Assembly: GCA_029238215.1 (NCBI GenBank)
Contig: JAQWGN010000001.1
Span: 48,411 to 112,410 of the forward strand
Length of the DNA stretch: 64,000 bases
DNA from: Flavobacteriaceae bacterium
GTDB taxonomy: Bacteria; Bacteroidota; Bacteroidia; Flavobacteriales; Flavobacteriaceae
Direction of reading: 5' to 3'
Positions 29,076 through 30,906 of the stretch are shown one piece after another. The position numbers and the translations under genes were made by a program. The notes beneath the pieces are model-generated. The model did no database searches, was not told the DNA's origin, and saw only the letters and a program-made list of their open reading frames with translations. Position 1 is the stretch's first letter. Every line of letters starts with the position of its first letter.

Positions 29076-30830
29076 TTAATATTCGAGATTAAAAGTGGTT
29101 TTGAAGAGCTCAATTATTGGCTTTTTTGCCTTTATTTCTTTGAATTTGTCCTCTGCTGTGTAAACGAATTTTTTATCTTCTTTTTCATCAACATGTATGT
29201 GTATACTGAGATGGTCATTTTTTAGTCGTTCACGAAGTGACCGTAGCAAGATGCTATTTTGCTTTTCGAGTTCCACACGATTTGTGTCGTTAGTTACAGT
29301 AAGATGAATCTCTGTTTGATTTTTTAGGCGTGGTATGTCCAGTTGTAATAAGGCAACCATATTACGTTCTCCTTTTTGAACCATTTCCTCAGTATATATA
29401 TTCCATGAAGCTTCTAGCGCTTCTTGATCAACATCCTCATTACGCATGATACCTTCCGCTGATGTTTCCTCTGTTTTATTCTGATGTTCTTTTTGGACAC
29501 GTAAACTTGAAAGTGACAATCCAGAAACGCTACTTTTTATCTTTAGGTCGAGTTGAATGGGCGCATCTTCACTTTCAATAATTTCGGGTATTGATTGTTC
29601 TGGTTGACTTATTGAAATATTTTCGTCTAAAGTAGGGGAGGTGACAGGTTTTACAACTTCTTCAATAGGTACAGTAATGTCTTTAGATTCAGCATGAGTT
29701 TCTGAAGGAGTTGATTTTGGTGTACTTCCTGGTTGATGTGGCTTTATGTACGATTTAACCTTTTTTTTTTCGCCTTCTTCTAACGAGGCAATTTGCATTA
29801 AACACAGTTCAACCTGTAAATGCTGATTTAAGCTGCTTTTGTATTGCAGTGCATAGGTGTTTGTTAGCGTTAATGCTTGCAATAAAAAAGATGCGGACGC
29901 AGCTTCTGCTTGGGCTAAAAATTTAGCCTCAGTTTCTGGACCTACTTCCAACAATGTTGCTGTTCCTTTATTTTGGCACATTAACAAATCTCTAAAGTGT
30001 TTTGAAAGTCCGTTAATAAAGTGATAGCCATCAAAACCCAAATCAATGATTTCGTTAAAGTTTAATATAGATTGGTGAAGATCACCACTGATTAATAGTG
30101 ATGTGATTTTCAAATAGCTATCATAATCCAATATGTTTAGATTAACTGACACATGTTTTGCTGTAAGGGTAGCGCCAGAATAACTTACCATACGGTCAAA
30201 AATAGAAAGTGCATCACGCATTGCTCCATCTGCCTTTTGCGCAATTAGGTGTAATGCCTCGGCTTCTGCGTCTACTCCTTCACGGCTAGCAATAGTTTTT
30301 AAATATTCCTCAGCGTCTTTTATGCTAATGCGTTTAAAATCAAAAATTTGACAACGCGATAAAATTGTAGGAATAATTTTTTGCTTTTCAGTAGTTGCCA
30401 AAATAAAGATGGCGTGCTGTGGTGGCTCTTCAAGTGTTTTTAAAAAGGCATTAAACGCTGCAGAGCTAAGCATGTGTACTTCATCAATGATATAAACCTT
30501 ATAAATTCCTTTTTGAGGGGGGATGCGAACTTGCTCAATCAGATTTCTAATATCAGCAACAGAGTTATTTGAAGCAGCGTCTAGCTCAAAAACATTGAAG
30601 GCAAAATCTTCGTTTGGATCTACTTCTCCAGTGCCGCTATTTATCTTCTTAGCAAAAATTCGAGCACAAGTCGTTTTTCCAACACCACGGGGTCCACAAA
30701 ATAACATTGCTTTGGCAATTTTCCCCAAATCAATAGCGTTTTGTAAGGTTTGCGTAATGGCCTGTTGGCCCACAACATCCACAAAGTTTTGCGGTCTGTA
30801 TTTTAAGGCCGATACAACAAATTCACCCAT
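29076..30830 (-). CDS. dnaX: DNA polymerase III subunit gamma/tau
   Basis: RPQNFVDVVGQQAITQTLQNAI, CGPRGVGKTTCARI, IDEVHMLSSAAFNAFLKTLEEPP. The ORF track extends to 30878; MGEFVVSALKYRPQ at 30830 is the likely start. Confidence 0.95.
   Translation of the reverse strand: MGEFVVSALKYRPQNFVDVVGQQAITQTLQNAIDLGKIAKAMLFCGPRGVGKTTCARIFAKKINSGTGEVDPNEDFAFNVFELDAASNNSVADIRNLIEQVRIPPQKGIYKVYIIDEVHMLSSAAFNAFLKTLEEPPQHAIFILATTEKQKIIPTILSRCQIFDFKRISIKDAEEYLKTIASREGVDAEAEALHLIAQKADGAMRDALSIFDRMVSYSGATLTAKHVSVNLNILDYDSYLKITSLLISGDLHQSILNFNEIIDLGFDGYHFINGLSKHFRDLLMCQNKGTATLLEVGPETEAKFLAQAEAASASFLLQALTLTNTYALQYKSSLNQHLQVELCLMQIASLEEGEKKKVKSYIKPHQPGSTPKSTPSETHAESKDITVPIEEVVKPVTSPTLDENISISQPEQSIPEIIESEDAPIQLDLKIKSSVSGLSLSSLRVQKEHQNKTEETSAEGIMRNEDVDQEALEASWNIYTEEMVQKGERNMVALLQLDIPRLKNQTEIHLTVTNDTNRVELEKQNSILLRSLRERLKNDHLSIHIHVDEKEDKKFVYTAEDKFKEIKAKKPIIELFKTTFNLEY
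29761..29770 (-). other. A10 slippery run in dnaX (coding strand GAAAAAAAAAAGGTTAA)
   Basis: Ten Ts on the + strand; contains A AAA AAG. The -1 frame reads GGT TAA (immediate stop), the +1 frame TTA AAT CGT ACA TAA. Confidence 0.7.
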
Positions 30831-30906
30831 GAGGTAAATATACATAAACTCATCTTTTGTATGATAAGTAAATGACATTCAAATTGTATAAAAGTGTATT
30901 TTTGCA

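Follow-up and report, generated by a model that had tools for sequence, protein, structure and literature searches.

The dnaX gene of a Flavobacteriaceae bacterium carries, where the clamp-loader core of its product gives way to the linker, an uninterrupted run of ten A residues (A10) that is likely to be a programmed transcriptional-slippage site, from which a single gene would yield a long and a short protein. With less confidence, we favour the broader reading that most Bacteroidota make two DnaX proteins by means of one ancient RNA-polymerase slippage cassette (9–11 A, often with a hairpin flush against its 5′ side), in which the frame of tau drifts freely between encoded, −1 and +1 with neither product lost. 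If this reading is true, slippage in dnaX, an essential gene of replication, is the norm for an entire phylum and is not confined to Thermus and a handful of predictions. The phylum would then offer natural replicates for asking why bacteria retain a short subunit of the clamp loader and in what way a hairpin in the nascent RNA affects slippage by RNA polymerase.

The A10 run and its stops in dnaX

The window analysed here is a stretch of 64,000 nucleotides, and dnaX lies on its minus strand. The gene product matches NCBIfam TIGR02397 above the cutoff, and the profile PRK14971 spans nearly its whole length. Because homologues align with it from about residue 17, we set the true start at 30830 (Met17), 16 codons after the listed ATG at 30878, which probably gives a tau of 584 amino acids. 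The features, in the order in which they are numbered along the window, are as follows.

29076–30878, minus strand: ORF of dnaX (DNA polymerase III gamma/tau), from TIGR02397, PRK14971 and homologue alignment
29079–29426, minus strand: conserved C-terminal domain, in tau only, from an alignment of 38 tails (AlphaFold pLDDT about 95)
about 29430–29760, minus strand: variable tau linker, from the same alignment of 38 tails
29744–29746, minus strand: TAA closing the +1 frame (AGG TTA AAT CGT ACA TAA), reached by a one-base deletion or a two-base insertion
29755–29757, minus strand: TAA closing the −1 frame (GGT TAA), reached by a one-base insertion or a −1 ribosomal shift
29761–29770, minus strand: putative slippage run, A10 in the mRNA and T10 in the template strand, from the sequence and its conservation in relatives
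29771–29790, minus strand: weak predicted hairpin (TGCCT, 10 nt, AGGCG; 5 bp) abutting the run on its 5′ side, from folding against synonymous-codon versions

At the run, the minus strand reads GAA GGC GAA AAA AAA AAG GTT AAA TCG TAC ATA, with the G at 29760 directly after A10. The run is located about 60% of the way through the gene, and tau is encoded in a single ORF with the core, not in another frame. A preliminary description of this DNA had reported A10 followed by G at the core/linker boundary, GGT TAA in the −1 frame and a TAA in the +1 frame; rereading the minus strand confirmed all of these.

Within this genome alone, A10 is not beyond chance, because shuffling the synonymous codons of the window dnaX produces it in 2225 of 5000 permutations (45%). 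The 1.67-Mb assembly contains about 13 runs of at least 10 A, both strands counted, and A10G occurs in it once. Coding sequence across the genome avoids runs of at least 9 A: 319 kb of the genome's own coding sequence holds 5, against 23.6 ± 3.8 expected, and a single T run of at least 9, against 10.0 expected. Baranov et al. take such avoidance to reflect selection against slippage, while noting that slippage during replication also plays a part (PMC1088944). In the same 319 kb, A or T runs of at least 8 are under-represented and runs of 6–7 A are over-represented, a bias that suggests a slippage-prone polymerase or replication machinery. A second coding A10 of this genome lies near the start of a 504-residue ORF (ATT GCC AAA AAA AAA ACC; L389:9730–11242, minus strand).

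Conservation across Bacteroidota

To place the run in its wider context, we compared 303 distinct Bacteroidota dnaX genes, of which 78 came from a named-genome search with one peptide pattern covering the site and are therefore slightly biased; the class and phylum samples are unbiased. A run of at least 9 A (9–13 A) stands at the core/linker border in 244 of the 303. It is present in all 17 genes of the genus, in 30 of 31 from the rest of the family, 18 of 21 from the rest of the order, 92 of 117 in an even sample of the class (the other 25 have no run of at least 9 A) and 21 of 39 from the other classes of the phylum. In 296 kb of upstream core from these genes there are 65 runs of 7 A, 13 of 8 A and none of at least 9 A. 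Conservation of the run at this site is thus far beyond chance. The concern raised in the preliminary description, that the run might be missing or interrupted in close relatives, was not borne out: A10 is uninterrupted in all 17 genus genomes.

The run is retained in genomes of 57–68% GC, in which lysine elsewhere in the gene is mostly encoded by AAG, and it persists while the residues at the site vary (EKKK, EKKN, LKKK, VKKK). Run lengths across the dnaX genes are 7 A in 7, 8 in 1, 9 in 32, 10 in 186 and 11 in 23. Among the genes with in-frame tau (n = 170), the base after the run is G in 62, C in 62 and T in 46.

Close stops accompany the run. Both other frames are closed within 6 codons in 84% of the 170 in-frame genes, against 12–16% for random codons of the same genes, and the median distance is 2 codons to the −1 stop and 5 codons to the +1 stop. 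In the 44 in-frame genes without the run, these medians are 19.5 and 14 codons, respectively, and both stops fall within 6 codons in only one. The nearby stops are missing where the run is missing, and therefore belong to it. The conservation of flanking stops in related Flavobacteriaceae, which the preliminary description had proposed to check, holds throughout the genus: in 17 of 17 genomes the −1 stop lies 2–3 codons and the +1 stop 5 codons after A10. Of these genomes, 11 have AAG and 6 have AAC as the codon behind the run, and the −1 stop is kept in all (AAG CCT AAG versus AAC AGT AAA).

Changes between run and no run number at least 14 on the tree used below to count frame changes. Bacteroidaceae and some other Bacteroidales are without the run; in Bacteroidaceae-like lineages (loci L103, L128 and L137, and other Bacteroidales), the flanking stops as well as the run have been lost. 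Two AT-rich genomes of very reduced size (L059 in G051, 0.34 Mb; L371 in G205, 0.49 Mb) have a dnaX core that ends at the slippage position or just behind it. These two genes have neither the run nor an in-frame tau tail, and apparently encode gamma only.

The frame of tau varies among relatives

The majority of run holders (170 of 244) have tau in frame with the core; 64 have it in the −1 frame and 8 in the +1 frame, so that 72 relatives carry tau in a frame other than that of the core. Counted on a FastTree tree of 264 core proteins, the frame has changed at least 35 times among run holders, and frames are mixed even within single genera (−1 and +1 in Flavobacterium, 0 and −1 in Aquimarina, and likewise in three further genera). 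In dnaX genes that consist of two ORFs, the third frame is also mostly closed at once. Opposite shift directions in one gene are regarded by Antonov et al. as a mark of transcriptional realignment (PMC3711429). Assembly errors are an unlikely source of the split relatives, which are seen repeatedly, in genomes assembled as a single contig and among congeners, and have the stop right behind the run. Many dnaX genes of Flavobacterium and Chryseobacterium that seem frameshifted or split are probably intact.

Two core ends depart from this pattern. One (L055, in G055) is without a long run and reads CCA AAA AAG TAG, and its tau tail continues in the −1 frame; it looks like a switch to ribosomal frameshifting of the E. 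coli type, which would there be needed for tau. The other (L046, in G036) reads GAA AAG TAA without any A run, with the tau tail open in the −1 frame; this gene may have lost the run, make two separate proteins or use another shift mechanism.

Transcriptional slippage as the proposed mechanism

We infer that slippage takes place in the cell as RNA polymerase copies T10, when the RNA–DNA hybrid, nearly all of it A:T pairs, would realign so that A residues are gained or lost. Transcripts with 10 or 13 A would encode full-length tau of 584 or 585 amino acids, and those with 9, 11 or 12 A would reach a stop within 2–5 codons and yield a gamma-like protein of 357–362 amino acids. This predicted short form comprises the clamp-loader core, ending in EKKKG, EKKRLNRT or EKKKRLNRT according to run length, without the linker and the C-terminal domain. 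In E. coli, gamma is a clamp-loader core that takes motor positions without ties to the polymerase or the helicase. The short form may similarly fill motor positions of the clamp loader without tying in either partner.

Because slippage supplies all three frames, it would account for species that carry tau in the 0, −1 or +1 frame. The hybrid within RNA polymerase measures 9–10 bp (PMC5009743), and the jump in gene number from 7–8 A to at least 9 A matches this length, not the 7-nt heptamer of ribosomal frameshifting. Bacterial RNA polymerases are known to slip on runs of at least 9 A (PMC1088944, PMC3711429). In E. coli, cassettes from another gene yielded frameshift product at 63% for 11 A, 40% for 9 A and 10% for 7 A (PMC3711429), values that make a near-equal ratio of tau to short form from A10 plausible.

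The preliminary description had proposed programmed slippage giving a gamma-like short form, and the presence of A10 with both stops throughout the genus, together with the phylum-wide conservation, supports that proposal at the level of sequence. It had also held transcription to be as plausible a stage for the slippage as the ribosome. Transcription stands as a candidate; the equal standing does not, since the frames, the length threshold and the variable next base all favour transcription.

A hairpin on the 5′ side of the run

Across the relatives, the 40 nt that immediately precede the run show more structure than their dinucleotide shuffles (mean z −0.90 ± 0.11). Compared with synonymous-codon versions, the last 36 nt before the run have a mean z of −0.81 ± 0.08 over all 244 genes, −1.30 in the genus and −1.81 in the family; from 30 codons upstream on, the corresponding z is about 0 in most segments, with smaller dips 8–20 codons away. 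The structure predicted for most Flavobacteriaceae has a stem of 8 bp and a loop of 4 nt and directly abuts the run (CTCTATCA-CTTT-TGATGGAG-A10). With the register set this way, 0.77 of cells are paired, against 0.19–0.53 when it is slid, and a letter-shuffle test on 33 distinct sequences, which ignores their relatedness, gave 0.66 paired against 0.58 ± 0.017. Pairing is kept by double changes, as in CTCCATTG/CAATGGAG (L020), CTCCATTA/TAATGGAG (L211) and CTCTGTCA/TGGCGGAG (L029), and the arms in one genus member (L016) are TGGCTTCG/CGAAGCCG.

Strong but unrelated hairpins occupy the same spot in Rufibacter, with arms GACCTCTCTG/CGGAGAGGTC at L133, and in Hymenobacter. In the rest of the order, the 8-4-8 register has a mean score of 6.4, similar to that of shuffles, and the hairpin is absent there on average; we therefore do not claim it for the phylum. 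The hairpin of the window itself reaches a z of only −0.5 against synonymous-codon versions.

In a Roseiflexus insertion sequence, a stem-loop directly 5′ of the slippery stretch enables slippage (PMC5009743). By analogy, the hairpin probably stimulates slippage in Flavobacteriaceae dnaX: forming in the nascent RNA, probably at the RNA exit channel, it would promote realignment in most of the family, and weakly in this genome.

Ribosomal and other explanations

It is unlikely that gamma is made here by −1 ribosomal frameshifting on A_AAA_AAG, as in E. coli, followed by termination at GGT TAA. The window dnaX does have A_AAA_AAG in phase, the −1 stop is the nearest and most conserved of the stops, the only tRNA-Lys found is UUU, a situation like that of E. 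coli, and the L055 gene, with CCA AAA AAG TAG and its tau in the −1 frame, resembles the E. coli type. Yet the heptamer, which the preliminary description had pointed out within the run, turns out not to be the conserved part: only 43 of the 170 in-frame genes have it in phase, and 6 of the 17 genus members have AAC, giving A_AAA_AAC, which is far less shift-prone than A_AAA_AAG in E. coli (PMC5009743). Moreover, tau in the +1 frame (8 genes) is out of reach of a −1 ribosomal shift, which also leaves the threshold length of 9 and the +1 stop unexplained. The stimulatory elements were also sought. A downstream stem-loop, of which the preliminary description had found no convincing example, is indeed not evident: the sequence behind the window's own run has a z of +0.68, and 40-nt segments downstream of the run average −0.1 to −0.4 across genes, which is background level; the hairpin lies instead on the 5′ side. 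A Shine–Dalgarno (SD)-like motif precedes the run in only 9% of genes, and the window shows no evident one; in Bacteroidia, ribosomes make no use of SD pairing (PMC9976891).

A comparably small probability attaches to ribosomes sliding in both directions on the poly-A, with RNA polymerase contributing little or nothing to the short form. Ribosomes slide both ways where AAA codons follow one another, and then terminate at stops in other frames (PMC4363877), and for this reason the frame pattern and run length are compatible with a translational or a mixed mechanism; sliding fits all three tau frames and both stops. The run, however, offers only two or three lysine codons, and sliding predicts neither the sharp threshold at 9 nt nor a hairpin set directly against the run on its 5′ side; slippage by bacterial RNA polymerases is known from runs of at least 9 A (PMC1088944, PMC3711429).

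That there is no programme, and that the run just follows from an EKKK motif and a codon use rich in AAA or serves as a hypermutable contingency tract for phase variation, is very improbable: A10 does arise in 45% of synonymous reshuffles of the window dnaX, and run length and frame do change often between species, but the run is kept in GC-rich, AAG-preferring genomes and despite differing amino acids, coding A runs of at least 9 are otherwise avoided, nearby stops accompany the run and are missing without it, and an essential gene is a poor target for phase variation.

Comparison with known slippage systems

A close precedent for the transcriptional slippage predicted here is dnaX of Thermus thermophilus (Larsen et al. 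2000, cited by PMC1088944 and PMC5009743). The Thermus gene likewise has tau in one ORF, a run of at least 9 A and close stops in both other frames, with a gamma-like product expected. It differs in having A9 where the window has A10, and in placing the site seven-eighths of the way through the gene and not at the end of the core. The 5′ hairpin is described here for Flavobacteriaceae.

The 2013 survey of Antonov et al. lists 17 two-ORF dnaX genes from 12 genera, nine of them with 10 A (PMC3711429). These share with the present genes an A10 at the border of core and tail, for which transcriptional realignment was proposed, and our relatives with −1 or +1 tau belong to this kind. The survey detects only genes whose tau needs a shift (PMC3711429); in the window, by contrast, tau is in frame. 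The Roseiflexus transposase resembles the Flavobacteriaceae genes in the hairpin directly 5′ of the slippery stretch, adjoining the RNA–DNA hybrid, and differs in its U5C5 sequence, one-base deletion and obligatory hairpin, where dnaX has a homopolymer that would be able to slip alone and in both directions (PMC5009743). In E. coli, the same gene has the same outcome, and the window copy shares its A_AAA_AAG and a −1 stop reached at once; the E. coli site, however, consists of A6G only, is flanked by an SD-like element on the 5′ side and a stem-loop on the 3′ side, and has its +1 stop 12 codons away.

Slippage in Thermus dnaX and the two-ORF A10 dnaX genes reported in 2013 are thus already known. 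The phylum-wide breadth, the in-frame majority, the free drift between frames and the 5′ hairpin are new; a search of the literature outside subscription papers found no prior description of any of them.

The tau-specific domain and the neighbourhood of dnaX

The predicted model of the tau-only C-terminal domain shows a weak likeness to DnaA domain I (E 0.075, probability 0.99, TM 0.69 on the target) and a poorer one to DciA. As a lead only, this would fit a protein-binding domain for the helicase or the polymerase. Directly upstream of dnaX and divergently oriented, the window contains an RNase P RNA (RF00010; 30906–31199, plus strand).
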